The notes beneath the pieces are model-generated. The model did not search any database and was not told the DNA's origin. It was given only the letters and a program-made list of their open reading frames with translations. Positions 33 through 47,125 of a stretch of DNA of 64,000 bases are shown here, in pieces. Position numbers and translations under genes: made by a program. Within the stretch, counting starts at the first letter, position 1. Each line of letters begins with the position of its first letter. Source of the stretch: a bacterium (GTDB lineage Bacteria > SAR324 > XYD2-FULL-50-16); assembly GCA_018829445.1 (NCBI GenBank), contig JAHJTV010000060.1:1-64000 (forward strand), written 5' to 3'.

Positions 33-134
33 TTTCCGTCCTCCTTCCTGTGGGTTGATGATTTGGGATGGTTGACGGAATTATCTACTGATAAGTGTCG
101 TTATGTCAATGAATCATTTCATAAGTATCGTTGT
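1..134 (-). mobile_element. Possible edge of an inserted element
   Basis: Read on the minus strand, the deaminase gene ends abruptly and is followed by two imperfect copies of a 13-base motif (121-133 and 91-103 on the plus strand, ATAAGTRTCGTTR, 11 of 13 identical, 30 bases apart). About 60 bases further on there is a strong ribosome binding site and a new start codon. Closely spaced terminal repeats followed by a gene reading inward is how several insertion sequences begin. The element runs out of the window, so its family, far end and target duplication cannot be seen. This is inference from layout. Confidence 0.35.
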
Positions 135-1612
135 AGGGTTATATGTTTAGCGCAATTGTGACATGGAAACGTGGTACAGTAAATAGCTGCCCCCATTGTA
201 CTAATATTGTTCCGGGCACAAGCAAGAATAGCTTCCATTTCTGCATGAACAACTCGACCGTATTCTGTGATGTCTTTGATTCGACTTTTCTTTAGACAAC
301 CTTCAATTACTTCTCTATGTTCTTTAGGAACTTTTTCTAAAATGTCTTGGATTATTCTCTGTTTTTCTTTCGCATTTGAATCTTCTCCCCGTTTATAATC
401 TCTCCCATCTTCTGCGTCAATAATTTCGTTTCTTTCCTCATTGTATTCAGGCCAATAAAGACCACCTCCAGCTTTTGGGATATCATTAGCACCTGTTGCC
501 ACAATGTTTTTGTCCTTTGCTACTACTGCTCCAATTTGACGTGATAAATCTGCAGAGCGTAATGAAGCGGAAAAAGCCATGAACATTGCAAATTCATCAA
601 ATGTTGGAGTTACATAGGGTCTGCCAAACATTAAATCAAGAATTCTCCATAGATCATTTTGAAATTTATCAGAATTCCCATCAAAATGAACAAAAAAGTC
701 TGATAAGTGAAAAGTGTCTTGAGTATGCTGCCCAGAATCATCTATTTCATTTTGATCCCTTTCAATTAATTCAGATGCTTGATCCTCACTTATATTTTTT
801 AGATTTTTTGTTAAGTAGTTGAATCTTCTCTTTTCATCAGCATAAACGCCGATCAAAAAGAATCCACTTGAGTAGATTTTTCTAAATCGATGAACTTCTT
901 CGGGATTTTTTAATGAGTTAATAATAAAAGCTTTTCTTTTAAAAGGAGCTGGTTGATCCCTTCCACTTTGTGACGTTCTGATCTCATTAATCTTAGCAGC
1001 AGTAGCAAGTGCAAGAATTGAATAATCTCCAGTTTTCTCTCTAATTTTATTACCTTCAGTCATATAAGTAGATATTCTCGTATAATCGGAATCACTATCT
1101 TCTACATTTCTAAACTCTTTTATTATTTGTTGAGATATTCTTATCTCATCCGTATTATAATTAAATGAACGTAAACGATCCCTTATAATAGTTGTAACTT
1201 GGGATAGATTCGTTCCAACAGCACCAACTAATCCTATTATCAGTTCAGAATCGGGATATGAATCATCAAAATAATGTTCTTCCTTAGTTATATTTTTTTC
1301 TTGAATGGTTTGTTTGCCTGGAATTGAATCCTTGAGGGCAGTATCCAAATTATTTAGATCAGTTTGAACCGGATTAGCAGTATCATCATCACCTTTTAAT
1401 AATCCGTTAACAGAAATCTTAAGTATTTCGGATACTTCATTTTTTCCCTGAAAATTGACAGTTCCAGTCGATGGATACCAATTAAGGATACTTCCATTCT
1501 TATGTTTGAATTGTTTTTGGTTTTCATTTAGGTCATTCCATTCACCATCCTGTTCAAGCGCACTTAGTTTTTCTTTTAACTCTTCAAATGTACCTGTAAA
1601 TTTCATTTTCAC
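119..1612 (-). CDS. Anti-phage dCTP deaminase-like protein, C-terminally truncated
   Basis: This 497-residue protein has the layout of the AvcD-type anti-phage dCTP deaminases. There is a P-loop-like domain near residue 127 (GLVGAVGTNLS) and a C-terminal cytidine/dCMP-deaminase fold with HAEMEAIL (zinc ligand His456, catalytic Glu458) and PCHNC (zinc ligands Cys484 and Cys487). Family members deaminate dCTP on infection and starve phage of nucleotides. The protein stops only ten residues after the second zinc cysteine (…AKHITLQRYL), so the last strand and helices of the deaminase fold are missing. The break coincides with a repeat pair and a new gene start, which suggests disruption by insertion. 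It lies 108 bases downstream of hsdS on the same strand, has an AAGGTG ribosome binding site, and is probably cargo of the same defence locus. The truncated product may be inactive. Confidence 0.8.
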   Translation of the reverse strand: MKMKFTGTFEELKEKLSALEQDGEWNDLNENQKQFKHKNGSILNWYPSTGTVNFQGKNEVSEILKISVNGLLKGDDDTANPVQTDLNNLDTALKDSIPGKQTIQEKNITKEEHYFDDSYPDSELIIGLVGAVGTNLSQVTTIIRDRLRSFNYNTDEIRISQQIIKEFRNVEDSDSDYTRISTYMTEGNKIREKTGDYSILALATAAKINEIRTSQSGRDQPAPFKRKAFIINSLKNPEEVHRFRKIYSSGFFLIGVYADEKRRFNYLTKNLKNISEDQASELIERDQNEIDDSGQHTQDTFHLSDFFVHFDGNSDKFQNDLWRILDLMFGRPYVTPTFDEFAMFMAFSASLRSADLSRQIGAVVAKDKNIVATGANDIPKAGGGLYWPEYNEERNEIIDAEDGRDYKRGEDSNAKEKQRIIQDILEKVPKEHREVIEGCLKKSRIKDITEYGRVVHAEMEAILACARNNISTMGAAIYCTTFPCHNCAKHITLQRYL

Positions 1613-1720
1613 CTTAGAAAATTAATTTAATCTTTATCGATATAAGTTTATCAATTGCACCTTCCAAAAAAACTAATCTTTTTTACTAACTGCTTTTATA
1701 GGAGTCTTCCTTTTCATATT

Positions 1721-3025
1721 TCAGATATGTTCCAACATCTTATCCGCTGGTTCTTCATTTATGTCTTGAGGAACCAGTTCACCTCGGAATGCTTTGACCA
1801 AGATGGAAGCCGTCAATTTATCAACCCCATTCTGGGCTCTTTTAAGTTTTTCTTCCATTTGACTAGCAACGGAAAACAGGGATTCTACTCTTTTCACGAT
1901 TTCCTTTTGCTCGTCCATCTCAGGAAGGTTGACTTTGATTGAACAGACTTCCTTGCTGTTAATATTATGTACTCCACTAGTCGATCTTGCACCTACTTCG
2001 ATTTGTTTTCTAATTTTTGGAGAACTCATGTGAATTTTTAAGTATTCAGGAAGGATTTCTTCCTTTTTTAAGCGTAACCGAATTAAATATCCCGCATAAA
2101 GAAATCCCTCTTCATCTTTTGATATTATATTAACTTTTCCAATTAAAGAAGCGCTTCCATTTGATCGTATTAAAAGTAAATCCCCTTTTTTTAGAGATAG
2201 GCTTTCCAACTCTCTCTCATTGAAATCAGCATATTTCATATCCGTTTTATCAATTCCATGATCACTAATATTCGGTATTCTAAGAACTGGAGTTAAGCTG
2301 TCATCATATGAACACTTTTTTGAGGTTCCATACCGAATTCCTTCAATGAGATTTTCAATGGTGTTTCTCTTCCAATTGTATTCTATATTTTTATGATTCC
2401 GCCAATCCTCAGTCAACCTCCCGGAAGTAGCATCAGCCAAAACAGATTGGCGGAAGCGTTTGATGATTTCTGGGACTTTATCCAAACGGGCTTTGCAGGT
2501 ATCAACTTTGGCGAGGAGGCAATCCAGTTTGTCGGCGATGCGTTTTTGTTCAAGGAATGGTGGTATTTTTATAGGAATCTTAGCAGCATTCTTTCCTGAT
2601 AACTCAAGAAAGGTGGTTCCACTCGATAGCTTTTCAGCAATGGATTTTGAGTTTCTAAGATAATAGTATACATATTTACTATTAACCCCTTCTTTCAAGA
2701 CAAAACTCTTAAACCCCTGATTAGTTGCAACTGGATTACTAGCGATAGCCACATAGCCCACAGGGGCCCTACTGGAGAAGAGTACCGTTCCTTCGGGCAT
2801 CAAGGTTGCTGAGGATGTATCAAGTCCTTTTTGACTTAAAAATCGTTTCCCATGTGATATATGGATTTTTTTGTATCCGCTAAGATCGGCTGGAGTTATC
2901 CAAGGAATACCATCCTTATCAACAAAATTTGATTCATCTTTTGTTTTTGGTGTACCTCCACCAACAACTTTTGCAATATCTCCTATCAAACTTTCAACCC
3001 AACCTTGAGGCAAATCTTCACTCAT
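1721..3025 (-). CDS. hsdS: Type I restriction-modification specificity subunit HsdS
   Basis: This 434-residue protein is the DNA-recognition subunit of a type I restriction-modification complex. It has the usual two target-recognition domains (about 5-155 and 210-365). Each is followed by a conserved helical spacer: EQKRIADKLDCLLAKVD near 160 and DEQKEIVKRVESLF near 368. The C-terminal helix contains the typical LVKAFRGELVPQD. Each recognition domain reads one half of a split target, so the specificity is specific to this strain and cannot be predicted by eye. The start codon shares one base with the hsdM stop (TAATG), indicating translational coupling. Length is normal and both recognition domains look intact. 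Confidence 0.95.
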   Translation of the reverse strand: MSEDLPQGWVESLIGDIAKVVGGGTPKTKDESNFVDKDGIPWITPADLSGYKKIHISHGKRFLSQKGLDTSSATLMPEGTVLFSSRAPVGYVAIASNPVATNQGFKSFVLKEGVNSKYVYYYLRNSKSIAEKLSSGTTFLELSGKNAAKIPIKIPPFLEQKRIADKLDCLLAKVDTCKARLDKVPEIIKRFRQSVLADATSGRLTEDWRNHKNIEYNWKRNTIENLIEGIRYGTSKKCSYDDSLTPVLRIPNISDHGIDKTDMKYADFNERELESLSLKKGDLLLIRSNGSASLIGKVNIISKDEEGFLYAGYLIRLRLKKEEILPEYLKIHMSSPKIRKQIEVGARSTSGVHNINSKEVCSIKVNLPEMDEQKEIVKRVESLFSVASQMEEKLKRAQNGVDKLTASILVKAFRGELVPQDINEEPADKMLEHI

Positions 3026-4467
3026 TACTCAACCTCCTCAACACCCAGTTCGTGCAAGATATCTGTCAAATCTGCCATTGCCCCTTCAAGTTCAACCATA
3101 GCTTCTCGGGCTAAGAAATCCGGTTCAGGTAAATTGGCAGCATCTTCGAGGGAATCGTCCTTCAGCCAAGAGATATCGAGTGATTCGTCCCTCTCTAAAA
3201 TAAATTCCCTTGTGAACTTGCGGAGCCTGCCAGTTTCACCCAAGTCTTGCCGTTTTGCTTTTCCATATGGATCAGTTCCATAAGATTGAACAAATTCTGT
3301 AAAGTGATTTTTAGTTAAGGGAGTGTTCTTCCCAAAATTGGGCATGTTGGATCTCAGGTCAAATACCCAAACCTCTTTGGTATTGCCTTTTTCTGTTTTG
3401 CCCCTGGTGAAGAACAGTACATTGGTTTTAACACCTTGAGCGTAGAAGATTCCTGTTGGTAACCTAAGAATTGTATGAAGATTACACTTTTCCATTAAAT
3501 CTTTACGAATGTTTTTCCCAATATTACCTTCAAAGAGAACGTTGTCGGGGAGAACGACCGCTGCCCGACCACCGGGTTTTAATCCTCGGTAAATATGTTG
3601 AAGAAAAGCCAACTGCTTATTACTTGTGGGATAGGTGAAATCGTCCCTTGAGGGTAATCCCCCACCTTTTTTGGAACCAAACGGTGGATTAGTTAAGATT
3701 AGATCTGATTTTGGAAGCTTCTGTCCCTGTGGAGATAAGGTATCCCCATACATCATTCCTGATTCGGGAGCATCACTATCCAAACCGTGAAGCATCATGT
3801 TCATCATTGCCAGACGGTGGGTATCCTGGACGTGTTCCATTCCGAAGAAAGTTTTGTTTTTATAAGTGTTGAATTCGACCTCTGAGAGTTCAAAGACATC
3901 ATGCCTCTCCCTCAGGTAATGATTAGCAGCGATCAGGAAGCCTCCCGTACCGGCAGCTGGATCTTGAATCACCTCTCCCAGTTTTGGCTGCATCAATTCC
4001 ACCATTACATTAATGAGAACCCTAGGGGTAAAGTACTGACCCGCACCGGACTTCTTTTCATTGGCATTTTTCTCAAGCAATCCCTCATAGAGATCCCCCA
4101 AACCTTCCTGTCGTGCAGAATACCAGTCCAGTTCGTCAATGCTGGTCACTAAGGAACTAAGTGTCGTTGCCTTTTTGATAAACGAGGAAGCGTTGGTGAA
4201 GATCTCCTGAACCTGCCTGCTTCCTTTCGTTCCCAGGTGAATCAGCATGATCTTATAATGTTCCAATCGATCGGGAGCGGGTTTGTTCACCAAATCTCTC
4301 CACCGGTAGCCTTCGGGGATTTTGTCTTCCTGTTCGGTCTCTTCTGCCATCTTGAGGAAAAGAAGGTAAGTCAATTCCGTGACGTATTGATGGTAAGTGA
4401 CCCCATCATCCTTCAGCATATTACAGAGGTTCCAAAGCTTGGCTACAATATCATGTGTTACTGTCAA
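3025..4467 (-). CDS. hsdM: Type I restriction-modification DNA methyltransferase HsdM
   Basis: This 480-residue adenine-N6 DNA methyltransferase subunit carries an N-terminal helical HsdM domain, the GQYFTPR segment (143-149), the S-adenosylmethionine motif DPAAGTGGF (169-177) and the catalytic NPPF (260-263). With HsdS it forms the modification enzyme that protects host DNA. The start is a TTG at 4467-4465, preceded by an AGGAG about eight bases upstream. The gene lies 16 bases after hsdR and overlaps hsdS by one base, giving the order hsdR-hsdM-hsdS. All catalytic motifs are intact. Confidence 0.96.
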   Translation of the reverse strand: MTVTHDIVAKLWNLCNMLKDDGVTYHQYVTELTYLLFLKMAEETEQEDKIPEGYRWRDLVNKPAPDRLEHYKIMLIHLGTKGSRQVQEIFTNASSFIKKATTLSSLVTSIDELDWYSARQEGLGDLYEGLLEKNANEKKSGAGQYFTPRVLINVMVELMQPKLGEVIQDPAAGTGGFLIAANHYLRERHDVFELSEVEFNTYKNKTFFGMEHVQDTHRLAMMNMMLHGLDSDAPESGMMYGDTLSPQGQKLPKSDLILTNPPFGSKKGGGLPSRDDFTYPTSNKQLAFLQHIYRGLKPGGRAAVVLPDNVLFEGNIGKNIRKDLMEKCNLHTILRLPTGIFYAQGVKTNVLFFTRGKTEKGNTKEVWVFDLRSNMPNFGKNTPLTKNHFTEFVQSYGTDPYGKAKRQDLGETGRLRKFTREFILERDESLDISWLKDDSLEDAANLPEPDFLAREAMVELEGAMADLTDILHELGVEEVE

Positions 4468-4483
4468 TGCTTGCTCCTATTGC

Positions 4484-7400
4484 TTATTGGGCCTGTTTCT
4501 TCCAGACCAGTTCATTAATGTCTTCTAAAAGCTGTTCTAGTTTCCCTTCAAAGACCCTATTGATTCTATTAAATCCGCCAACTTCACGGAATTGAGCACT
4601 GTTCATGCTCTCCTTGTCAACGATGAATTCCTTTTTCATCTGGGTAGCAATCCTCTTCAGCCAGGTCTCTTGGGGTTTTGTCCATTCGGTTGATGTTAAA
4701 ATACCTTGAACTGCTATATCAACTCGCTGTTCCCATGAAATCAGTGCATCACCCAACGCAGCCTGTCTGATAAATCCGATAATCCCTGCTGCAATATTCG
4801 CATTTGATGTTGCCTTGTAGGCTGTTTGCAGATCCCGTTCACGAAACCCCTGCAACTCCAATTTCAATTGAACTTCTTTGAGTTCTTTGCGAGTTAGGCT
4901 CCGTGGTCTCTGAAGAATAATTTTCAATGCTGCGATGTCATTGGTTGGATCTGTGATGAATTTTCTGAACCCTTCAATATAGTCTTCCGGCTTTTCAACT
5001 CTGCCATCCCCATAGCCAATGCTGATTTCCTTGATTCTGTCAGGTTGTTCAGAGATCGGGATAAAAGTCGGACCAGAATCACCTTTCGTATCCAGAAGTT
5101 TTCCAATATCTGAGTTCTTTTGGAACCATTCAAATACCTTTTCAATGGGCTGGGACATGATGTCGATAATGAATTCTTCAGGAGTCTTATCCGTCTTTAC
5201 TTTGAATCTCTGTTTTTGATTCTCATCCAGAAATCTTTTCTTTGCCTGAAGCTTGGCGATGAATTGATCCCTAGCATGTTTCTTCAACTCGTTATTGGCA
5301 ACAGTGCGGATCTCATTTTCCAATTGTGTAAACGTGACCTTCGGATCTACCACTACCGGTTTCATATCCGTATAGTTTTGGAGACCCGCATAAACATTCA
5401 CCGCATCATAAATGCGGAATACTTCTTTACCGATTTCATCACATAACCTTGTTGCCCTTCCCAGCATCTGATCAAACAATATCCGGCTGTTAACCTTTCT
5501 GATAAAAACGAGGTTACAGATCTGGAGCACATCGATCCCGGTTGTTAATAAATCCACCGTTACGGCTACATTGGGGAATTTCTCATTCTTGTATTTTCGG
5601 ATCTGCTCCAAGGGCTTATCAGCCTTGCCCGTGATTTTCTTGACTGCATCATCTTCAATTTCCCCATAGACCTTTTTAAATTCTTTCTTGAGAAGATTGA
5701 CTACAAGATCCGCATGTCTGTCGTTAACGCAGAATATTAGGGTTTTTTCATCCAGGCTGGGGTCAATTTCTTTAGCTAAACATTCACAGACCACTTGATT
5801 GAAGGGTTCGGTGATGACATTTTTGTTGAAGGCGGAAACATCAAAGTCCAGTTCATCGGGTGTATTATGAAGTTCAATTTCTCCGGTGGAGGTATTGAGG
5901 ACTTTGACTGAGGAGTTCTTATCCCAGTGGACACCTTTTTCAGAGAGTTCTGTTTTGATGGTGTAGGGTGGTTCATGATCAACCAGATACCCATCCAAAA
6001 CAGCTTCCCTGTAACTATAGCTGTATATTGGTTTTCCGAAGATATCGGTGGTATGTAGAGCGGGGGTTGCCGTTAGTCCGATTTTGACGGCATCAAAATA
6101 GTCAAGGGCTCTGCGGTATTTTGAAATGTAATCTCCCTGGCTCCTGAATAACAGTTCTTCATCGCTCATCTCCCGGTCCAACAGGTATCCTCTGTGACAC
6201 TCATCCACAATGATGCAGTCGTACTGATCAACCTTGGGTTTCAGGGATTCATCCCCTGCGTAAAGAATCCGTCTGACCATGCCCTGAATGGTTGAGATGT
6301 GGACGGAAGTTTCTCTGTCGGGGATCGCATCCCCAAGTTCCTTGATGGCAAAGATATCAGCAAATTTCTGAAGACCTACCATCTCTGTATCCTTAAAGGC
6401 ATTGGCTGCCTGTTCACCAAGAGCGGACCTATCAATTAGAAATAGGATTCGTCTGAATCTCTGGGCTTTTAGTAGGCGAAATATCAGAGCAATACTGGTT
6501 TTTGTCTTTCCCGTGCCGGTGGCCATTGCTAAAAGTGCTTCTTGTTTGCCTTCCATGATGGCTTTTTCGGTCTCGACTATTGCATTCTTTTGGTAATACC
6601 TAAGGGGAAAACCAAAAGAGAAGGTCATTTGGGCTAGTTTCTGTTCGGCATCGTCAATATCAACCCGGCTGAGATCGATCAATCCCTGGGGAGTATACCA
6701 GGACTCTAAGGGTCGCCTTAGATTCTGGGGTCTCCTAACATCGCAGAACCAGATTCCACTCTGTGTTTCCAGTTGTCTGAGGAAAGGTCTTCCGTTTGTT
6801 GAGAAGACGAATGGGATTTGGTGATCTTCCCATGGTCCACCTTGAAGTTCACAGCAATCCTTTAGGTTGAAATCCCGGCTGTACCTTTTGGCTTGGTCAA
6901 TAGCTGCGGAGACATCCAGGTTCTTTCTTTTGGCTTCAGCAATTCCGATGGCTTGAAGTCCGTTGAATAAAACATAATCAGCGGGTCCACTGGTTGTGGG
7001 CCATTCAGCGATTGCTTTGTATTTGCCTTTTTCGGGCCTTACCCCTTTTGCAAACCTTATGTTTTCGGTATCTACGATCCATCCAGCTGCAAAAAGTTGT
7101 TGGTCTATCAGTTTACGGGTATCTGCTTCCGTCAGTTTAATTTTATCAGCAGCTTGTTTGGATGCTGTGATTGTCTCCTGAATTTCCTTCTCTGTTTGTT
7201 CTCTGGCTTTTAGCTGGAGTTTTTCCAGTTCCTCTTCGTAAAGAGCAACTTCTTGTTTGGCTTGTTCCTCGGTTTGTTGTGCAAGTTCAAGGGCGGCATC
7301 TAATTCAGTCCAGGCTTTTTGGGATTCATTTTCGGCTTCCTTTCTTTTTTCAATCTCAGTCTGGGTCAGCTTTTCAACACCTTCGACTTTTTCCACCAGT

Positions 7401-7882
7401 TCATGAATCTGATTGCGGGCTTCCTCAAGCTCACTCTTTAGTTCAGCAGTTGCATCAGCGGGGTTAGGTGGGATTTGAAAGGCACCAGGTTTGTAGGTAT
7501 TGTCTTTGAAAACCCTGAAAAAATGAACAGACAGTTGATGGGCAAACCTTAGATTTTGGAGAGCTATCTTAGTCGTCCCGATTCCTTCGTGTATCGCATC
7601 ATTTCCAGCTTTACGAATGCTATGGAACATTTCCGCCAGGTTATAATCAAGATAGCCCTGATATTTTAATTCCTTTAAAACCTGTGCTTGCTCGTAATGT
7701 CCTTCGGTATAGATACCGATCCGGGCAGCGATATTTTTAGCAAGGAATTCACCAAACAATCTGAGCTTCGCCAAGGAAGATGATGGATCAGTCAGGCAGT
7801 ACCGCTCCGCCATTGCGGCTTGCTTGACCAAAGCAGGATCAAGATCTGATAGAAACTGAAAATTGGGGGAAAGTAAATTCAT
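4484..7882 (-). CDS. hsdR: Type I restriction endonuclease/translocase HsdR
   Basis: This is the 1,132-residue motor and nuclease subunit. Domains in order are: a DUF4145-like N-terminal domain (about 10-120), a charged coiled coil (about 145-250), a PD-(D/E)xK nuclease domain with Asp302 and the EAK motif at 316-318, and a superfamily-2 helicase core. The helicase core has Walker A ATGTGKT (454-460), DECH (560-563) and TATP (604-607). A C-terminal domain follows, like that of EcoEI-type R subunits. With HsdM and HsdS it translocates unmodified DNA and cuts at a distance. It is the first gene of the operon. A short inverted repeat (ACCTG…CAGGT, 7891-7906) overlaps the presumed ribosome binding region and could affect expression. 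All motor and nuclease motifs look intact. Confidence 0.96.
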   Translation of the reverse strand: MNLLSPNFQFLSDLDPALVKQAAMAERYCLTDPSSSLAKLRLFGEFLAKNIAARIGIYTEGHYEQAQVLKELKYQGYLDYNLAEMFHSIRKAGNDAIHEGIGTTKIALQNLRFAHQLSVHFFRVFKDNTYKPGAFQIPPNPADATAELKSELEEARNQIHELVEKVEGVEKLTQTEIEKRKEAENESQKAWTELDAALELAQQTEEQAKQEVALYEEELEKLQLKAREQTEKEIQETITASKQAADKIKLTEADTRKLIDQQLFAAGWIVDTENIRFAKGVRPEKGKYKAIAEWPTTSGPADYVLFNGLQAIGIAEAKRKNLDVSAAIDQAKRYSRDFNLKDCCELQGGPWEDHQIPFVFSTNGRPFLRQLETQSGIWFCDVRRPQNLRRPLESWYTPQGLIDLSRVDIDDAEQKLAQMTFSFGFPLRYYQKNAIVETEKAIMEGKQEALLAMATGTGKTKTSIALIFRLLKAQRFRRILFLIDRSALGEQAANAFKDTEMVGLQKFADIFAIKELGDAIPDRETSVHISTIQGMVRRILYAGDESLKPKVDQYDCIIVDECHRGYLLDREMSDEELLFRSQGDYISKYRRALDYFDAVKIGLTATPALHTTDIFGKPIYSYSYREAVLDGYLVDHEPPYTIKTELSEKGVHWDKNSSVKVLNTSTGEIELHNTPDELDFDVSAFNKNVITEPFNQVVCECLAKEIDPSLDEKTLIFCVNDRHADLVVNLLKKEFKKVYGEIEDDAVKKITGKADKPLEQIRKYKNEKFPNVAVTVDLLTTGIDVLQICNLVFIRKVNSRILFDQMLGRATRLCDEIGKEVFRIYDAVNVYAGLQNYTDMKPVVVDPKVTFTQLENEIRTVANNELKKHARDQFIAKLQAKKRFLDENQKQRFKVKTDKTPEEFIIDIMSQPIEKVFEWFQKNSDIGKLLDTKGDSGPTFIPISEQPDRIKEISIGYGDGRVEKPEDYIEGFRKFITDPTNDIAALKIILQRPRSLTRKELKEVQLKLELQGFRERDLQTAYKATSNANIAAGIIGFIRQAALGDALISWEQRVDIAVQGILTSTEWTKPQETWLKRIATQMKKEFIVDKESMNSAQFREVGGFNRINRVFEGKLEQLLEDINELVWKKQAQ

Positions 7883-9420: not shown

Positions 9421-10964
9421 TGTCCCTGTTATGCGGAAATGGTACCACTGATAAACCCGGATGATCGGTATTACCGAGATTGAAATTCAGGGTGAACCGA
9501 AATCAAATGTGAATGGAAAAGGGTTTTTGCCAGAAATTATGGGCAGAAAACCTGATTTTTGACGCACTTCTCCTATTAAAGTCCTGATTCCCAGCTTTCA
9601 TTTTATCCGACTCAAGCTGCTTTCCTTATTCTATAAGTAGTTACTATCGTTTCCTGAAAACTTTTAATTTCCAAATTGGCAGGAACATCTTTATTGGTTT
9701 TTGGTACAAAAGGAACAACTTTATCTCTGAAAACCATACCGGGAGTAGCACTTCCCAAAAACTCATGAGGACGCCAGTTATTATACCATTGGGAAAATTT
9801 ACTGCAAAGGTGGGTAAGATGCCGATATCCTCGGATGATAGTAACCTTTTCCAACTATTCGTGTTTCAAGGTTTCGATTACTCGCTCTGTTACAACGATG
9901 CTTCCGTGTTCTCCGACTGCACCATATCGGATTTTCGCCCCATTTGAATCAATGAACTCTCCAAAAGCAGCGCTGGTAAAGACACTTCCGTGATCCGAAA
10001 TGATGTGCTTGGGCTTTCCAATATTTTCGAACGCCGCTTCAAGTGCATTGATCACAAATCCAGTGCTGGGTACTTCAAGTGGTGTTACTGCCACAACTTG
10101 GCGGGAGAAATGATCAATGGCAACCAGAACGCAGATCTTCCATAAACCCCAATAATATACTTCCGTTAAATCAATACTCCACAAATGATTGGGGTACCAG
10201 GCCGGGATTCGACAACCATTTTCGCTCTTTGTTAGATAATTTTTTGAGCACCTTATTGATTGCGGATTCCTGGGCTTGGGATGTTGTAAGATGTTACGAA
10301 CGGTCGAAGCAGCAAGGAATATGTTCAGAAGTTTTAATTGATTGGAGATTCGAACTCTGCCCCAATCGATATTATCTTTGGAAATACGCCAAACCAATGC
10401 GGCTAAGGATTCCAGTGTTTTATTCCAGGGTTGTCGATTGGGTTTAGGAGTATCGTCAATTTGTCTTAACCATCGATACAAGGTGGATCTGGCAATACCA
10501 AAGGTCTTGGTTACATGTCGTTTTGGTATTTGGAAGTACTCCATATGCCAGAGAATAAATAACCTTTCTTTCAGATTGTATCGAGCTTTACTTGAAGATG
10601 AATGGATCTGTTTCTGGAAAATTGTAATTTGAGTTTCAAGTTGATAGATTCTATCGCGGAGGAAGACAATTTCCTTATTTTTCTCATCAATGGGCAACTT
10701 TGCTATTGACTTCAATCCGAGTTTTCGAAATTTACCTGCCCAGGCTGCCGCCAACAGTGCGGCTTTTAAAATCATAGAAACAGCATAAACCATGATTTCT
10801 GTTTGCTTCTTCATTGCGGTCAAAATTGAATCAGCTATTTGTAAAATTGGCTTCAAAATGACCGATGAATAACATAAACTTGTATCACTACGCAATGGAA
10901 TGATGACTTAATAACCGTGTATTATCAATTTATTGGATGGTCCCATTATCGCATGACAGGGACA
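9421..10964 (-). mobile_element. Insertion sequence with 27-bp terminal inverted repeats
   Basis: The 27 bases at 9421-9447 and the reverse complement of 10938-10964 match at 23 positions. Both begin TGTCCCTGT and end ACCA. They enclose 1,544 bp containing a single DDE transposase on the minus strand. I see no clear target-site duplication: the left flank is ACGAAT and the right flank is GGGTGA. The transposase carries an in-frame stop, so this copy is probably not autonomous. Confidence 0.85.
9612..10895 (-). pseudogene. DDE/integrase-core transposase interrupted by an in-frame amber stop
   Basis: An N-terminal helix-turn-helix (RHVTKTFGIARSTLYRWLRQ) is followed by an rve-type integrase core with the acidic triad SIDLTEVYYWG, HIISDHGSVF and the helix ending VTERVIETLKHE. 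There is then a TAG at 9855-9857. The same frame continues for 80 codons with the normal end of such enzymes (FSQWYNNWRPHEFLGSATPGMVF). Related enzymes often have tryptophan near this point, so a TGG-to-TAG change is the likely cause. Read through, the protein would be about 427 residues; the first 27 may not be translated, with MKKQTEIMV an alternative start. Loss of function is inferred; suppression or readthrough is not excluded. Confidence 0.85.
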
Positions 10965-11357
10965 GGGTGACCCTTTTTCCTTTCTATAAGGTAAGTCAAA
11001 AGAAGACTTGACCCCTTTTTCTGACGGTTGTAAAAGTCTGAGTGATTTGATAATTTTAATTCATAGACAAAACAATTTTTCTTGGAAAATGTCCCGACTC
11101 TTAACTGATACGTGCTCAATTGATGGGCCATTTATGTTTTGATGATAAATCGGATTGCGGTTGACAGGTAAGTCACAAAGACTGACAAGTCTTTGACCCT
11201 CTGAGGAAGATGCACCATTGTCTGTAATAAAACCTTGTGTAATCACATTAAGCCTTTGAATATTATTCATTATAGATAAATATTTCGATTTTCCACAGAT
11301 GATTCGAATGGATTTGATGAGGATAAAAGGGACTGTATCCATACTATTAGAGGATTT
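10965..11357. other. Leader region upstream of the MoxR gene with two related hairpin motifs
   Basis: This 393-base region between the insertion sequence and moxR has no convincing gene. Two related motifs stand out. The one at 10989-11014 and the one at 11166-11199 both start AGGTAAGTCA and end TTGACCC. The second contains a perfect 8-bp hairpin (CAAAGACT-GACA-AGTCTTTG, 11176-11195). They could be operators, attenuator hairpins or element remnants. Confidence 0.45.
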
Positions 11358-12209
11358 ATGACAAACGATAAAACAAACCAGTTTATTGGTGCCCAGAAAT
11401 ATATTTTAGACAGTGAGTTAGCGCAAATTGTCAACGTTTCCATGCAACTTGAAATGCCTTTGCTGTTAAAAGGAGAACCGGGCACAGGAAAGACCATGCT
11501 GGCACACGCCATCGCTGAAAACCTGAAAATGCCACTGATTGTGTTGAACGTAAAATCAAGTATGAAGTTGGTGGAAACCTTGTATCAATACGACACTCTC
11601 ACTCGACTGAACGACAGCCGTTTCGGAGATTCCAGCAGGGATGTCTCCAATATTGAAGACTATCTGAAAATGGGAAAAATCGGGCAGGCTTTCACCTCTG
11701 ATCAACGGGTGGTGTTATTGATTGATGAGATTGATAAGGCCGATACCGATTTTCAGGATGATATGCTGGATGTGTTGGATCAGATGCAATTTGATATAAT
11801 CGAAGTTGATAAGACCATTTCGGCAAAACATCGACCGATTTTCATCATCACTTCAAATGCAAAAAAGGATCTGTCTGACCCGTTTCTTGGCCGATGTAAT
11901 TTTCATCATATTGCCTTTCCTGATCCCAAAATGATGCGAAAGATTATTGATGTCCATTTTCCCAATATTGATCAGCAGTTAGCGGAGAATGCCATTGAAA
12001 CCTTCTACAAACTACGTGAAATGGACGCCATTGAAAAACGACCGGCAACACGTGAATTAATCAACTGGATCAGGGCACTAAATGCAGATCCTGATTTCAA
12101 GGCTGATGATTTGATTGATAAGGAAGTCCCATTTTTAGGAGTTTTATTCAAGAAAAGCGGTGATTTCTCCCGGGCTTCAAACTACTCAAAAAGAAGACGA
12201 CGCTTCTAG
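11358..12209 (+). CDS. MoxR-family AAA+ ATPase
   Basis: This 283-residue AAA+ ATPase has Walker A GEPGTGKT (about 38-45), Walker B LLIDEIDK (about 120-127), a sensor-1 region (FIITSNAKKDL) and an arginine-finger region (FLGRCNF). MoxR proteins act as chaperone-like ATPases that, with a von Willebrand-A partner, mature or activate enzyme complexes, often by metal insertion. The start has AGAGGA about five bases upstream. The partner VWA gene starts ten bases after its stop. The C-terminus is unusually basic (SKRRRRF). The client is unknown. Confidence 0.9.
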   Translation: MTNDKTNQFIGAQKYILDSELAQIVNVSMQLEMPLLLKGEPGTGKTMLAHAIAENLKMPLIVLNVKSSMKLVETLYQYDTLTRLNDSRFGDSSRDVSNIEDYLKMGKIGQAFTSDQRVVLLIDEIDKADTDFQDDMLDVLDQMQFDIIEVDKTISAKHRPIFIITSNAKKDLSDPFLGRCNFHHIAFPDPKMMRKIIDVHFPNIDQQLAENAIETFYKLREMDAIEKRPATRELINWIRALNADPDFKADDLIDKEVPFLGVLFKKSGDFSRASNYSKRRRRF

Positions 12210-30670: not shown

Positions 30671-32986
30671 TTAGAATACAGCAAAAGTGCTTTTTAACAT
30701 CTTGGTCAGTGTTTCCTGATTTTCTTTTCGATACTGGTCCTGATAAAGCACTTTTACCCCGTCTTTGGTCAATTCAATCATCTGCTGAATATTGAATTTT
30801 CCAGAGGCAAGTTGGATGATCGGAGTCTCTTTGTATTTTGATTTTTCCTGTTTTAAATGTGAGATTAAGATCCGAACAATCTCAGAATCCCCGTTAATGA
30901 CAAACAGATTAAAATCCTGAAAACCAATTTCATTCCAAATCGATTGAAAATATTGGGAGAGCTGTCTGGCGTTATAACCTGCCAATTTTGATAAAACATC
31001 CTTTTCCTCGAAGTCCAGATCTGTTTTATTATCCTCCACTTCCTCATTCTCATTAATCTCAATGGGCAAAGAATAAGCAAATTTTGGCGTTTTATGAATT
31101 CGACAGAATTCAACTTTGTCAGTATCCATAAAAGTGCTTTCCAATGCTCTTTGAATTCTATTGCAACTCTTCTCATCCTCGGAAATCATGCAGATCTTTT
31201 TAATCTTGTCCGATGAATACCGTTTAAATTCCAGATCCCGATAATACGCCTGAACAGAAGCAAACAGATCATCGGCAACTCTCTCATAGACCTTGTTCAA
31301 TTCTGCGTAGAAAGCAAGAAATGACAGGTTTTTCAATCGTTTCTCACAATTGCTGATCTGATTCCTGAGATTGTCTATGGCCTCACCCAAGGGAGGATAT
31401 TGCTTTAAAGAAAGCTCATCCTCGAACTCCTTAAACTTCCTTTGAAGGAGAGCCTTGGTAGTTACACTGCAAATGATTATTCCATCATGCAGAAAGATTT
31501 CAAGACACTCGATATCCAATTTTACAAGTGATTCAAGGCTGTTGACCTGCTTTGTAATATTTAAAAATGTTTTGTTATTGGTGTCTCCCAACTGTTGGTC
31601 GATGGTTTCTGCCTGCTTAACGCTGTCAAAAACTATCAGCACATTTTCATTACGGGCTACCGCCACATCGCAATCCTGTTCATTCCATGTTTCAGATATT
31701 TCAACCAGATTTTTCAGAATATCCATTTTGTTGCCGGCAATCATATCCATGTACCGTTGTTGATCATCAAGGGCTTTGGAATTGGACAGCGCTTTCAGCT
31801 GATCTTCAAGTTTTTGCAGTTGGGCCTGGGTCTGGCTGTTTTGTTTATTAATCCTGAGAAGATCGAAGGATTCTTCTTCCAAAACAAGGAAATCCGGATC
31901 GACTTCGCTGATACGGTTGATGGTTCTGATATCTAAATCGTTATCCTTTAGATTCACAGTGAAAGAGAAGGGAGTTTCCTGATCATTATCTGACCTGATA
32001 CCAATGAGAAATCGATCTGCGGAATCTGCCAATTGATCCGCTGTAATGGTGCTCGAAAACCCATTCTTCAGCAAAATTCGTTTAAATGCTTCATGAAGTG
32101 GCGGATAATCGGAAGTTACAGTGATAGGGGTGTTGGCTTTTATGATACTGGCTGACTGGTAAAGATTATCGTTAAGATAAAGACTACAGCGACTTCTCGC
32201 TAATTCTTTTATCTTAAACAAAACTGTTTTGTAATCAATTCCTTTTTGTTTTACCTGCCGATATCCTATTACATGGTCAATGGGAATATTATCCGTTTCA
32301 AGCCTTATAATATCACGGAAGTACAATCCGGGACTTAAATAAAACTTCCCCTTGTAGCTCAGGCACCCTTTGTAATCCTTAAACCGGATTTTACTCCCTG
32401 TTTCTTGTCCAATACGTTCACAAAGGCTTTTGGGTTTTAGATCCAATCCGTTCCAGCTAATCGATTCAACTGCACTCCATGGAGCAAAACACACTTGGTC
32501 TTCTTTATTCAAACAACACTCTTGAGCGGAAAAAGTAATATGCGGAGTCGGCGCTATCTCTGTAAGTAGGGTTACCTGATCTTCGGCGAACCAATCGGCG
32601 CTCTTGATCTGGATTCGATTCAGCCTTCTAAATTCGATCTCCTGGTAGGGATATGTTTTTATATAACTATTTATAACCTTGTGCGGTTTTCTTTCAATTA
32701 GAAAAAGGTAAGGATAATCGATCAGATCTTTTGACAGATATGTCTGAAAAAAACTCTCAAAATCCACAAAGTTTTTAAATATATCCAGAGTAGTGAATAT
32801 AAAATCCGGTCTTATATCCGCCAGTTTATTGAGGCTGTTTTCTTTGAAACGAGACCATTTAAATTTTATATGATCAAATTTTACATCAATTTGATCTTTA
32901 GCAAACATATCCTCTAAAGAGAAACAAAATTTCTTCCAGAAGAATTGATCCAGTCCCAGTCCTAAAATATTTATTATCTGATTCAC
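30671..32986 (-). CDS. Large orphan protein (771 residues), unknown function
   Basis: I recognise no domain. There is no signal peptide or membrane segment, so it should be cytoplasmic. The N-terminal 115 residues (ILGLGLDQFFW … IRPDFIFTTLDIF … PYLFLIERKP) look like an alternating alpha/beta fold resembling a degenerate receiver domain. A segment near 385-400 and the last 140 residues (…DFNLFVINGDSEIVRILISHLK…) have a similar pattern. Between them are long helices and an acidic patch (NENEEVEDNKTDLDFEEKD, about 661-679). It is divergent from a TerB-like gene, with 264 bases between starts, suggesting a shared control region. Confidence 0.6.
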   Translation of the reverse strand: MNQIINILGLGLDQFFWKKFCFSLEDMFAKDQIDVKFDHIKFKWSRFKENSLNKLADIRPDFIFTTLDIFKNFVDFESFFQTYLSKDLIDYPYLFLIERKPHKVINSYIKTYPYQEIEFRRLNRIQIKSADWFAEDQVTLLTEIAPTPHITFSAQECCLNKEDQVCFAPWSAVESISWNGLDLKPKSLCERIGQETGSKIRFKDYKGCLSYKGKFYLSPGLYFRDIIRLETDNIPIDHVIGYRQVKQKGIDYKTVLFKIKELARSRCSLYLNDNLYQSASIIKANTPITVTSDYPPLHEAFKRILLKNGFSSTITADQLADSADRFLIGIRSDNDQETPFSFTVNLKDNDLDIRTINRISEVDPDFLVLEEESFDLLRINKQNSQTQAQLQKLEDQLKALSNSKALDDQQRYMDMIAGNKMDILKNLVEISETWNEQDCDVAVARNENVLIVFDSVKQAETIDQQLGDTNNKTFLNITKQVNSLESLVKLDIECLEIFLHDGIIICSVTTKALLQRKFKEFEDELSLKQYPPLGEAIDNLRNQISNCEKRLKNLSFLAFYAELNKVYERVADDLFASVQAYYRDLEFKRYSSDKIKKICMISEDEKSCNRIQRALESTFMDTDKVEFCRIHKTPKFAYSLPIEINENEEVEDNKTDLDFEEKDVLSKLAGYNARQLSQYFQSIWNEIGFQDFNLFVINGDSEIVRILISHLKQEKSKYKETPIIQLASGKFNIQQMIELTKDGVKVLYQDQYRKENQETLTKMLKSTFAVF

Positions 32987-42318: not shown

Positions 42319-42825
42319 ATGCTAGACAAAAACGAACTGATTGCCAGACTCAAGGACTTTTCCCTGTTTGAAGATATTGCAGATGACAATCAAAAAATGG
42401 AAAAAGTGGTTGCCATTTTAAAATCAAAAACCATTAAGGCCGGTGAATATATTTTCAGACAGGGTGATCAAGGTGAAGAGCTCTTCATCTTGATTTCAGG
42501 TGCGGTAAGAGTCTGTAAAACCACCATGCAAAAAGAGGAATACACAATCGTAGATCTGAAAGCTGAATATAATGTATTCTTTGGAGAAATCGCTTTGATG
42601 GATAGTGATAAACGCTCGGCCAGTATTAAAGTACTGGAAGATTGTGAGGTATTGGTTATGGAGAAAGACAATTTCACTCAGCTGGGCAACGAGTATCCAG
42701 AAATTGGCCTTCCCATTACCCGGGTAATTGTCAAACGCATTTGTGGCAATCTGCGCAATGTTAATAATGATGTCATTCTTCTCTTTGATGCCCTTGTCAA
42801 TGAAATTCAGTCAACCCAGTTATAG
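42319..42825 (+). CDS. Cyclic-nucleotide-binding domain protein
   Basis: This 168-residue protein is a single CRP-like cyclic-nucleotide-binding domain. It has the roll segments AGEYIFRQGDQGEELFILISGAVRV and a phosphate-binding-cassette-like region, FFGEIALMDSDKRSASIKV. There is no DNA-binding domain, so it is a sensor or scaffold rather than a transcription factor. It is convergent with the ATPase gene that follows. The ligand and partner are unknown. Confidence 0.9.
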   Translation: MLDKNELIARLKDFSLFEDIADDNQKMEKVVAILKSKTIKAGEYIFRQGDQGEELFILISGAVRVCKTTMQKEEYTIVDLKAEYNVFFGEIALMDSDKRSASIKVLEDCEVLVMEKDNFTQLGNEYPEIGLPITRVIVKRICGNLRNVNNDVILLFDALVNEIQSTQL

Positions 42826-42836
42826 TTGTCCAGATC

Positions 42837-44762
42837 CTACTCATAAAGTTGCAACACCGACAGTTTCTCAAGTCTTTTTCTTTTTAGCCTATCAATTCTG
42901 GGTTTCAAAATCGCCTTATCCAAATCCTTAAATGACAAACCCTGTTGATCATGAAGGTCGTTGGCAATGAACTCAAGAAACCTGTCTTCTGAAACAGTCT
43001 GCAATCCATTAATATCATTATAATTCGTTACTTCCCCGTCAATGATTTTATAGTTAGCAAACGTCAACGTATACCAAAAAGCTGCCTGGGACTGACTCAA
43101 CCTGATATCAATGCCTCCCTTATCTTTAAACTCCTTGAGAGTTTTATTCGTTCTTTTCCATACTTCGGCACCGGGAAATTTTGATCGCCTTTCTCTGATA
43201 TAATAAACTTTATTAGTCAGATTATCCTCCAAGAATTCAACTCCCCTTCTGAGTTTGGCATCGACAGCTCGATGGTGTTGCGCGTCATCAATTATAAACG
43301 CAATCTTTGTTTCTCCTTTTTCCTCAATGTCTATCACGCATTCACAATCGATATATTCCTTTTCACTCTTGGCTACTTTGACCGAGGCTACTTTAAAACC
43401 TGATTTTTGAGGAATACTGTTCAAATAGATGCCTAGCGTGCGTCTTAATCTCATTCGATCCGGAGCGATCTCTTTTAGATTTTTTTTAAGATTTGCATAT
43501 TCTCTTTTTAACAGGTTCATCAAAACAGAGTTTACTGATTCGAATTGATCTCCGATCGGATTATCCAAAATCTCGTTTAATACCCGGTTGGCTTCAAATA
43601 TAATTTCCCTTGGACTTAAGATCTCGGATTGAAAAACCTGGGTAAGCTTTTGTTTATCAATAGGATAAAAATCGTCTCCAATGTCTTCACCAAATATAAA
43701 ACTCAACCTGGCTTTGACTATATTCAGTGCATCGCTGGAATCACATCCTGTTAATACTGCGGTATTTGAGTGAAGTCTGGAAACAACATGCTGGTTCAGT
43801 TCATGACTGAAACGCTCCTCCCACAGTTGCCCTCTAAAAAAGGCGATGGGAAGCATGGCATATGTGTGATCCACAAGAAACTCCAGCATTTTACCAAATG
43901 AGTGCACATGATCCAGTGTATTAAGATTTTCCATTCGATCAAAACAGACAACCAGTAATCGGCCATATTTTCCCAAAATCATTCCAATCGAATTTAAAAT
44001 ATCCCGAGCTTCTTGTTCCAGAGCGCGTTCAGACATATCTATTCGCTTTGCCACTCCCAGTTCTTCACAATCCCTTTCATCCAAAACAACGCTTTTCAGC
44101 CAGCTGATCGAATGTGATCTATGATGAATACACCGGTACTTAAGGAACACATTCACAAAGTTCCTATCTATTCCCGAAAAGGTATTCATCAGATAGTTTC
44201 TTGCTATCTGCTCAAACTTGGGGTTTTCAAGCACAGATTTAAGAATTTTTGAGCTGAGATAGCTCAATGGGTTTTGTCGCAGTTTCTGGATAAGTCCTTT
44301 CTGCTCCTGTCTGGTAATGGACGTAATTTTTATCTTTTTTCCCAGCAGATCCAACAGGAAAAGCCCAAATAGACTATCCAACTGAGAGGCAATTTTATCC
44401 TCTTTTATGGGACGGCATAAACTGACTGCAATTTCCCTCAACAGATATCTGAATGTCTGGTGCGGATCTTCGATGGGTTGTATATATGAGAACAGAAAAA
44501 GAGAATTATCTTTTATCTTACGTTGCAGGAGGCGTGAAATGAGATGGGTTTTTCCGGCTCCCGCTTCTCCGAGTATCAAACAGGATATTCCGTCTTGGAC
44601 ATTATTCAACTTTTGATCAATAAGTCGGCTTATTAGCGAGTATGCCTTATCATTGATGGATTGGATATCTGGAAATCGGTTGACCCATGGATCTCCTGTG
44701 CTTGCGGAAACAAACGGATTATTTGTTTTCAGAATCTCAATTTTGGTGCTTGCTTCAATCAT
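42837..44762 (-). CDS. P-loop ATPase of unknown function, partner of a winged-helix protein
   Basis: This 641-residue protein has a STAND/AAA-like N-terminal half with Walker A GEAGAGKT (65-72) and a Walker-B-like strand LLVVCFDRMEN (Asp275 followed by Arg rather than Glu). A long helical middle follows. The C-terminal region from about 470 has the strands CECVIDIEEKGETKIAFIIDD, then YYIRERRSKFPGAEVW, and may form another alpha/beta domain. A nuclease fold there is only a guess. It starts with an 8-base overlap with the upstream triple-winged-helix gene, so the pair form one operon. Similar ATPase plus winged-helix pairs occur in conflict and DNA-processing loci, but I recognise no named system. 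Confidence 0.7.
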   Translation of the reverse strand: MIEASTKIEILKTNNPFVSASTGDPWVNRFPDIQSINDKAYSLISRLIDQKLNNVQDGISCLILGEAGAGKTHLISRLLQRKIKDNSLFLFSYIQPIEDPHQTFRYLLREIAVSLCRPIKEDKIASQLDSLFGLFLLDLLGKKIKITSITRQEQKGLIQKLRQNPLSYLSSKILKSVLENPKFEQIARNYLMNTFSGIDRNFVNVFLKYRCIHHRSHSISWLKSVVLDERDCEELGVAKRIDMSERALEQEARDILNSIGMILGKYGRLLVVCFDRMENLNTLDHVHSFGKMLEFLVDHTYAMLPIAFFRGQLWEERFSHELNQHVVSRLHSNTAVLTGCDSSDALNIVKARLSFIFGEDIGDDFYPIDKQKLTQVFQSEILSPREIIFEANRVLNEILDNPIGDQFESVNSVLMNLLKREYANLKKNLKEIAPDRMRLRRTLGIYLNSIPQKSGFKVASVKVAKSEKEYIDCECVIDIEEKGETKIAFIIDDAQHHRAVDAKLRRGVEFLEDNLTNKVYYIRERRSKFPGAEVWKRTNKTLKEFKDKGGIDIRLSQSQAAFWYTLTFANYKIIDGEVTNYNDINGLQTVSEDRFLEFIANDLHDQQGLSFKDLDKAILKPRIDRLKRKRLEKLSVLQLYE

Positions 44763-45471
44763 CGGTTATCCAAGTAGCTGTGAGCCTCAAGCGCCCGGTA
44801 TTATCAATATAGGATTGTTCAATTTCTGATTTTGAGAAAGTCGATGGATCACCCCCCTGCAGTTGTATCACCAATTCGGACTTTAACCATTCCAAAACCC
44901 TGACGAACCTTTCATTCGACCAATTTAATTCTTCACGAATCAGATGAATCCTGACAAACCTTCTTCCCTTGCTCACTTTATCATAGGCGTTTTTAAACAG
45001 TTTCTTCTCCTGAACGTCATCCTGTCTAACACTCTCTGCGGAACCGCCATCAGACGAAATTATGAATCCTTTCAATAGATGGGTTTTTTCATTAATGACC
45101 CCTTTCAGTTCACCGTTTTTAAACAGATCATTTAAGATCTCAACGAAGGTGCGATTATTTATCGGCAGTAACGATCTTAATCGCTTTGATGAAAGGTTGG
45201 GGTTTTCCCTGATTTTGTTTAAAACAATATCTTTCAACAGGAGATTAAAAGCAACATAACTTGATCTTCCATTCCTAAGGATAGTCAAATTTTCACCAAG
45301 GTGGAGCAACAGACGATTGATCACCTCTTTTACCGAGGACTTTCCTTTTTTTAAACCGAGGGATCTGACAGCTTCTACAGGAAGACCGTCTCTTACCTGG
45401 TTTACTGTCAAATAATCCTTTTTCCGTTGTCTTAACAACTGCTCCACCAACTTGTTTATTTGTTCATCCAT
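44755..45471 (-). CDS. Protein with three winged-helix-like segments, partner of the ATPase
   Basis: This 238-residue protein has what look like three helix-turn-helix/winged-helix units. The first is about 1-75 (YLTVNQVRDGLPVEAVRSLGL … NGRSSYVAFN). The second is about 78-140 (NLSSKRLRSLLPINNRTFVEILNDL). The third is about 160-238 (RIHLIREELNWSNERFVRVLEWL … GRLRLTATW). This suggests DNA binding or protein scaffolding. Its stop region overlaps the ATPase start by 8 bases. No named family is recognised. Confidence 0.65.
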   Translation of the reverse strand: MDEQINKLVEQLLRQRKKDYLTVNQVRDGLPVEAVRSLGLKKGKSSVKEVINRLLLHLGENLTILRNGRSSYVAFNLLLKDIVLNKIRENPNLSSKRLRSLLPINNRTFVEILNDLFKNGELKGVINEKTHLLKGFIISSDGGSAESVRQDDVQEKKLFKNAYDKVSKGRRFVRIHLIREELNWSNERFVRVLEWLKSELVIQLQGGDPSTFSKSEIEQSYIDNTGRLRLTATWITDD

Positions 45472-45706
45472 GCTTTTTTTCTTTTATTATGATTAAGCAA
45501 ACAGAAATCATGGGTATGTTATATAATTTGCCGCAGGGTTCGGTCAACAAAAGCTAACACAGGCTTACCTTACCTGATGTTCAGCCGCATCTGCGTTCCT
45601 TCATTGACATCAAGTCACATCAAATCTATGATTACAGGCAAAACTATCGAATTGCCGACATAATAAACAGATACTAAAATGTAGCACGCAAATTTAATTA
45701 ATCATC

Positions 45707-47125
45707 ATGGATCAGATCGATAAAAGTACACTTGTTAATCAATTAACTTCTCTATCTCCAAAGAAAATTCTGGTTATCGGAGATTTAATGCTGGATCAGT
45801 ATATTTGGGGTTCGGTTCAAAGGATATCACCGGAAGGTCCAATACCTGTTTTAAATGTTGATAGAGAGGAGTTCAGACTTGGAGGCGCCGCGAATGTTGC
45901 GGTAAATATCAATTGTCTGGATTGTGTGGCGTTGCCGGTTGGGATTGTTGGAAAGGATCATTCTGGTGAGAAGCTGCTCAATATTTTTGAACAACATCAC
46001 ATATCCACCGAGGGGATTATTATCTCTGAGAACTTCCATACCATAGTCAAGCAGAGAGCGATAACAGATCAACAACAATTGTTGAGGATAGATTACGAAT
46101 TTCAGGTTGAAAATGATGCTGCAATACAGAAGGAAATCTGGAAAAAGACTGAGGAACTCCTAAATACGGTTGATTGTGTTGTGATATCTGACTATGCAAA
46201 AGGTGTTCTTAAAAAAGATCTCATTGCCTACATAATCAGGAAAGCAAAAGAGCGAAAAATCCCAATAATCTGTGACCCTGGCAAGGGAGTTGATCTGGCC
46301 TGGTATAAGGGGATCACGGCGATCAAACCCAATCGATTTGAAACAGAACAAGCTACAGGAATTCGTTTGAAGGATGAGGAATCGATATTAACTGCAGCAA
46401 ATACTCTTAAGAAAGCTTGTGGAGCGGAATTTGTAACGATCAGCCTGGATAAGGACGGAATTCTCTTTTTTAAAAACATCAAGGACTACTCTTTTATGGA
46501 GAGTAAGGTTCCGGAAGTATATGATGTAACGGGCGCAGGTGACATGATGATCAGTACAGTCGCTGTCTTACTGGCGAATAAGGTAACCCCTCTTTATTCC
46601 ACCTACGTGGCCAATATTGCAGCAGGTTTGGAAACATCACACTTAGGTGTTGTACCGATTCCCTGGTCTGAAATAATGACACAGATAGTTGAAGATGGAT
46701 TTAATAAAAAGATCATCAAAATATCCGATCTTATTTCTCTACTCCAGAGACATAATCATTCCTCCCTGATCTTTACCAATGGGTATTTCGACAATATCTC
46801 AGCCGGGCATCTCAGGTTTCTGCTGGAAATTAACAAAATTCCGGGAAAACTAGTGGTTGCGCTCAATAGTGACGCCTGTATAAAGCGACAAAAGGGAAGT
46901 TTCCCGCTGTTGAAAGAATTGGACAGGGCACGTTTGCTTGCCAGTATTGAAAATGTTCACCATATTATAATATTTGAAGAAGATGACGCATCTGCTATCA
47001 TCACTCAACTGTCTCCGGATGTGGTTGTTAAGGGTGCCGAGTTTAAAGGACAGGACATTCCTGAAATGGAGGCAATTAATAAAGTGGGAGCGAAAATTGA
47101 ATATATTCCACATTTTTCCTGGTAG
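45707..47125 (+). CDS. hldE: HldE-like heptose-7-phosphate kinase / heptose-1-phosphate adenylyltransferase
   Basis: This 472-residue bifunctional enzyme belongs to ADP-heptose synthesis for the LPS inner core. The PfkB-type kinase half has GGAANVAVNI, ISDYAKGVL, PNRFETE and VTGAGD near residue 278. The nucleotidyltransferase half has TNGYFDNISAGHLRFL and VVKGAEF. The nucleotide-binding HxGH motif of that half is altered: where relatives read FDILHAGH, this one reads FDNISAGH, so the first histidine is replaced by serine. The kinase half looks intact; activity of the second half is uncertain. No clear ribosome binding site. Confidence 0.9.
   Translation: MDQIDKSTLVNQLTSLSPKKILVIGDLMLDQYIWGSVQRISPEGPIPVLNVDREEFRLGGAANVAVNINCLDCVALPVGIVGKDHSGEKLLNIFEQHHISTEGIIISENFHTIVKQRAITDQQQLLRIDYEFQVENDAAIQKEIWKKTEELLNTVDCVVISDYAKGVLKKDLIAYIIRKAKERKIPIICDPGKGVDLAWYKGITAIKPNRFETEQATGIRLKDEESILTAANTLKKACGAEFVTISLDKDGILFFKNIKDYSFMESKVPEVYDVTGAGDMMISTVAVLLANKVTPLYSTYVANIAAGLETSHLGVVPIPWSEIMTQIVEDGFNKKIIKISDLISLLQRHNHSSLIFTNGYFDNISAGHLRFLLEINKIPGKLVVALNSDACIKRQKGSFPLLKELDRARLLASIENVHHIIIFEEDDASAIITQLSPDVVVKGAEFKGQDIPEMEAINKVGAKIEYIPHFSW

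Follow-up and report, generated by a model that had tools for sequence, protein, structure and literature searches.

A class of anti-invader systems termed HerA/FtsK capture was predicted in 2024 by Rakesh, Aravind and Krishnan (PMC10853773). Its members combine an Orc/Cdc6 AAA+ ATPase with an inactive restriction endonuclease (REase), an active REase, and HerA/FtsK, and one set includes FtsK_alpha (PMC10853773). A subset of the class also carries a rapidly evolving protein made of two to four winged helix-turn-helix (wHTH) domains (PMC10853773). The same domain pairing is reported for SspB, a triple-wHTH protein, and SspC, an Orc/Cdc6 ATPase (PMC10853773), and BREX uses related Orc/Cdc6 and wHTH combinations in BrxA and BrxC (PMC12839542). 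In the following sections, these systems are compared with a gene pair encoding a triple winged-helix protein and a P-loop ATPase. The pair lies in a 64,000-nucleotide stretch of DNA from a bacterium of the SAR324 phylum (contig JAHJTV010000060.1), here called the window.

Gene pair and its site beside hldE

The wHTH gene lies upstream of the ATPase gene on the minus strand, and the pair is antisense to both of its flanks, a cNMP-binding protein gene and hldE (Table 1). The original prediction placed both open reading frames correctly and gave their overlap exactly, an arrangement that suggests translational coupling. Three other genomes contain homologous pairs of the same gene order and similar lengths, free of internal stops, which indicates that both reading frames are real and not products of chance. 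These pairs also overlap or abut, and their ATPases are 49%, 36%, 35%, and 34% identical to that of the window. No further gene belongs to the operon of the window pair, and the GC content of the two genes is that of their surroundings. In the divergent intergenic region, scans for promoters and terminators remained at chance level and gave no convincing minus-strand promoter, and Rfam returned no match.

Table 1. Position of the gene pair, its motifs and domains, and its flanking genes in the window.
Feature	Position	Strand	Remarks
cNMP-binding protein gene (flanking, outside the module)	42319..42825	+	Left edge of variable site; 11 bases past ATPase stop
P-loop ATPase gene, 641 aa	42837..44762	-	Probable AAA+ of AAA_16/AAA_22 (Orc/Cdc6-STAND) type
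C-terminal alpha/beta domain, residues 436-570	43053..43457	-	Element order a-b-b-b-a-b-a-b; model, low confidence
Altered Walker B, residues 274-280, FDRMENL	43923..43943	-	Arg at catalytic-Glu position; Glu278 kept
Walker A, residues 65-73, GEAGAGKTH	44544..44570	-	G65, E66, A67, G68, G70, K71, T72, and H73 invariant
Overlap of wHTH and ATPase genes, 8 bases	44755..44762	-	Probable translational coupling
Triple winged-helix protein gene, 238 aa, first of the pair	44755..45471	-	ORF; AF2 model; Foldseek
Divergent intergenic region between pair and hldE	45472..45706	.	235 bases; promoter and Rfam scans
hldE-type gene (flanking, outside the module)	45707..47125	+	Right edge of variable site

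Within the SAR324 phylum, four of 52 genomes carry the pair, at five loci in total, and the wHTH and ATPase genes occur together at every one of them. Beyond the phylum, genomes were covered by a single search with the window protein. No relatives were found in phage records or viral contigs.

One of the other loci, L002, has its gene order in common with the window and carries the pair at the same site; its cNMP gene is reduced to a fragment. In the same-genus genome G047, a glycerophosphotransferase-like gene is found at this hldE-MEMO site instead, and genomes G044 and G045 have neither, so that the two genes flanking the site are adjacent. The pairs that G045 and G047 do possess sit at other positions. 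Conservation in core synteny alone had been named as evidence against the original prediction; instead, close relatives have the same site empty or occupied by another gene. The pair is thus accessory, not core, although two lineages share the hldE site. This common location implies that the pair has stayed there for some time and is not freely mobile. Between the window and L002, divergence of the pair exceeds that of every flanking gene compared: identity is 49% for the ATPase and 41% for the wHTH protein, and lies at 53-82% for the eleven flanking genes that are intact.

The glycerophosphotransferase-like gene occupies or shares the variable site at L026:5589-6848 and L002:9923-11179. The site beside hldE seems to collect accessory genes.

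Domains of the two proteins

The AF2 models of both proteins were built from two sequences, those of the window and L002. For the wHTH protein (mean pLDDT 74), the model contains three winged-helix-like units. The best PDB matches found by Foldseek are tandem winged-helix structures, namely Pol III chain 8iue_P (E 2e-5) and the C-terminal fragment of SelB (1lva, E 1e-4), with further matches to TFIIIC and UFL1/DDRGK1. Model and matches agree with the three units originally read from the sequence. Their low TM-scores (0.2-0.3) support the presence of winged-helix units and not membership of any specific family, such as kinship with DndG, SspB, or FokI. A PDB profile search with the protein gave nothing useful, and the viral fold library returned generic wHTH matches only. 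The most conserved part is the third unit (residues 158-238), which bears an LQGGDP...G-x-LR motif and has 22 invariant columns out of 81 versus 2 out of 77 in the first unit.

The 641-aa protein is a probable AAA+ ATPase. It scores just under the Pfam gathering cut-offs for AAA_16 (29.2 vs 32.6 bits) and AAA_22 (25.2 vs 27 bits), both of which are exceeded by an FtsK-fused homologue. The AF2 model is poor (mean pLDDT 51); the AAA+ subtype is therefore not secure, and the Orc/Cdc6 assignment is putative. Searches of Pfam, PADLOC, NCBIfam, and PHROGs with the ATPase produced P-loop matches only (AAA_16, AAA_22, KAP, and a short stretch of Avs2). Identity as Avs2 or KAP was rejected, as the matches are confined to the P-loop.

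Walker A is nearly invariant across the five SAR324 ATPases. All five have the Walker B sequence F-D-R-[LM]-E-N-L, and the cyanobacterial relatives described below have F-D-Q-L-E. The position of the catalytic glutamate is thus held by Arg or Gln, respectively, and the acidic residue at the third position past the Asp is retained. The intact Walker A and altered Walker B of the original reading are both borne out (Table 1). Between them, the low-confidence model places a helical insert of approximately 150 residues (about 100-265), in keeping with the long helical middle that had been proposed.

The C-terminal region of the ATPase (residues 436-570) displays an REase-like order of elements with no ExK, and its third strand ends in I-D-[DNQ]-[AS]. 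Foldseek matches of the ATPase model with probability >0.5 include SfsA (0.97), APOBEC3F (0.82), MUS81-EME2 (0.69), EndoMS (0.60), and a viral RNA polymerase subunit. SfsA, MUS81-EME2, and EndoMS have PD-(D/E)XK-type folds. All of these matches have E >0.1 and none of the ATPase matches has E <0.001, so the support they lend is weak. Neither the full ATPase nor the C-terminal domain gave anything useful in profile searches of the PDB (the PDB searches returned myosin P-loops and designed TPR proteins), and no sequence match was found for the domain. We infer, with low confidence, that residues 436-570 probably form an inactive, catalytically dead REase-type domain. In the predicted class, the inactive REase sits between the AAA+ core and a wHTH at the C-terminus (PMC10853773); the ATPase model resolves no such wHTH. 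The alpha/beta region noticed originally is thus seen in the model, albeit at low confidence, but its interpretation as an effector finds no support: the region contains no nuclease motif that could be recognised and looks more like a dead REase-like fold. In family scans, likewise, neither protein showed a nuclease or any other effector domain that could be recognised.

FtsK fusions, neighbouring genes, and cyanobacterial relatives

In two sister loci, L013 of G046 and L012 of G047, the ATPase is fused at its C-terminus to an FtsK/SpoIIIE motor. FtsK_alpha (1.2e-5) is recognised in the G047 protein together with FtsK_SpoIIIE (2.3e-42). The fused motor shares 34% identity with the window genome's own FtsK. 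No captured FtsK was found in the window locus or elsewhere in the window genome, which has one strong cellular-type FtsK only. A specific kinship of the FtsK-fused form with SspH was rejected, as the match covers the FtsK motor only and the cellular FtsK scores almost as high (216 vs 223 bits). A tree rooted with the cyanobacterial outgroup separates the window and L002 from G045 and the two fusions (support 62 and 93). This topology weakly favours a single gain of FtsK over repeated loss.

The genes adjoining the pair differ between loci. Beside the G046 fusion pair is an FRG-domain gene (PADLOC candidate PDC-S15), with PP2C and kinase genes close by; the G045 pair adjoins a DUF4143 ATPase (PDC-S01), and the neighbours of the G047 fusion are metabolic. 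The window pair has no adjacent defence gene; the nearest recognised ones, a type I R-M system and a dCTP-deaminase homologue, are about 35 kb away. Defence-type genes are thus found beside some relatives (G046, G045, and the cyanobacterial ones) but not beside the window pair or the G047 fusion.

Several other features of these regions were observed. At L013 (16363-17094 and 8816-12127), the fused module is flanked by the FRG gene, the kinase and PP2C genes, and two unmatched ORFs, whose proteins (9624-10823 and 10795-11469) belong to no Pfam or PADLOC family. Phage-tail-like genes, baseplate-type as judged by eye, are located at L011:14000-20000, approximately 10 kb from the G045 pair. In the window, a defence cluster at 119-7882 comprises the dCTP-deaminase homologue (PADLOC dCTPase, 2.5e-143) and the type I R-M genes (hsdS-like, MTase_I, and REase_I), and a 771-aa protein with no PADLOC match is encoded at 30671-32986.

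Outside SAR324, relatives of the ATPase half only were found (22-24% identity, E 5e-7 to 9e-6). They are encoded on cyanobacterial plasmids, on which no wHTH homologue was found. The DEDDh exonuclease-ATPase proteins of Nostocales and Synechococcus plasmids (e.g., BBD63242.1) have a homologous ATPase half with the same F-D-[QR]-x-E Walker B. However, they differ from the window ATPase by an N-terminal exonuclease fusion and another C-terminus. The genes beside the cyanobacterial relatives encode a helicase, a hypothetical protein, and PLD (DISARM-like by order, from annotation only), HerA and NurA, or TIR and macro. These exonuclease-ATPase proteins look like a separate candidate family. Such fusions are present at L008, L009, L031, and L032, near varied defence-type genes.

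Proposed function and comparison with known systems

The explanation to which we lean, with modest confidence, is that the pair is a minimal, FtsK-less counter-invader module of the Orc/Cdc6-type HerA/FtsK-capture kind. An anti-invader function is predicted from architecture and neighbours. This reading draws on the strict co-occurrence of the two genes, their patchy distribution and fast divergence, the FtsK fusions, the defence-type neighbours, and a domain set like that of the predicted class (PMC10853773). Against it speak the stable site, the ordinary GC content, the metabolic neighbours in G047, the poor ATPase model, and the absence of an adjacent defence gene, an effector domain, and a viral relative. 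A defence-type pairing of an ATPase with a DNA-binding protein, as first proposed, thus remains the best-supported reading of these accessory genes, but precedent exists and the pair is not wholly undescribed.

In its mode of action, the window pair most likely corresponds to the recognition and ATPase components of a HerA/FtsK capture system. The triple-wHTH protein would bind DNA and recognise the target or tell self from non-self. Together with it, the AAA+ ATPase, whose nucleotide binding is intact but whose Walker B catalytic residue is replaced, would assemble on DNA and may act there as a clamp or switch that is slow or gated by ATP. The putatively dead REase-like C-terminal domain of the ATPase could offer a platform for binding DNA or a partner. 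In the sister loci, the fused FtsK motor would pump or intercept invading DNA. In the window version, the bound DNA may be passed to a partner encoded elsewhere, or replication or transfer may be blocked by occupancy. A bolder proposal, rather unlikely in our judgement, is that the two genes constitute a self-sufficient anti-invader system with no nuclease or translocase. In such a system, foreign DNA would be blocked by occupancy once the wHTH reader had loaded onto it an AAA+ clamp that is impaired in hydrolysis and bears a dead REase domain, and the FtsK fusion would be a later upgrade in this family.

Other roles can be considered for the pair. Domesticated mobile-element or partition machinery, in which an Orc/Cdc6/TnsC-like ATPase and a DNA-binding partner would act in replication, segregation, or transposition targeting, is unlikely. 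AAA_16/AAA_22 P-loop ATPases do include such proteins, an FtsK fusion fits DNA segregation, and distant relatives are found on cyanobacterial plasmids, one of them beside parAB. However, the window locus contains no integrase, transposase, or convincing repeats, its chromosomal site is common to L002, and the neighbours of several relatives are defence-like, not replicative.

The pairing of a triple-wHTH protein with an Orc/Cdc6-type ATPase is shared with the PT and BREX systems through SspB-SspC (PMC10853773) and BrxA-BrxC (PMC12839542). The window pair could likewise scan DNA for a separate modifying enzyme, as a DNA-modification or target-scanning module. This role is quite improbable, as neither a DndC-type sulfurtransferase (DndC model) nor PglZ was found in the window genome and the three other carrier genomes (88-93% complete), PADLOC gave no match to Ssp or Brx proteins, and no modification gene adjoins any of the five loci.

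It is very improbable that the window pair is the degenerate remnant of an FtsK-fused system whose effector was lost. The two FtsK-fused sisters and the lack of another captured FtsK in the window genome would agree with such a loss, but three separate FtsK-less members keep intact ORFs of 633-641 aa, and the tree nests the fusion beside the FtsK-less G045 with an FtsK-less outgroup, albeit with weak support (62). Least probable is an ATP-gated transcription regulator of the neighbouring core genes, which the winged helices, the divergent orientation to hldE, and the setting among core genes would suit, but three loci lie at other sites with entirely different neighbours, and most relatives have hldE without the pair.

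If the counter-invader reading is correct, the pair would provide a small, two-gene experimental entry to an anti-invader class that is so far mainly a genomic prediction. It would also offer a natural comparison between forms that carry a fused FtsK pump and forms that do not, showing what a DNA translocase adds. Furthermore, the little-studied SAR324 phylum would contribute a candidate defence family that is absent from the defence catalogue searched.

Among known systems, SspFGH/DndFGH have an ingredient list in common with the pair and its fused forms, consisting of an FtsK/HerA motor, a P-loop protein, and a triple wHTH (in DndG); the window proteins have no PADLOC or NCBIfam match to SspF/DndF or SspG/DndG. 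As in Orc/Cdc6-coupled HerA/FtsK capture, compared here by description, a probable AAA_16/AAA_22-type ATPase with a possibly REase-like C-terminal alpha/beta domain is accompanied by a separate, fast-evolving multi-wHTH protein. FtsK_alpha and an FtsK motor are likewise present, but in the two sister loci. Because neither FtsK nor an active REase accompanies the window copy, it should not be counted among the full members of the class. The original view that the pair matches no named system holds insofar as it has no family in PADLOC, Pfam, NCBIfam, or PHROGs, but it needs amending in that the FtsK-fused sister loci match several features of the class predicted in 2024 (PMC10853773). The pair is uncatalogued in the libraries searched and is best taken as a two-gene, translocase-free variant of a class that was already predicted.
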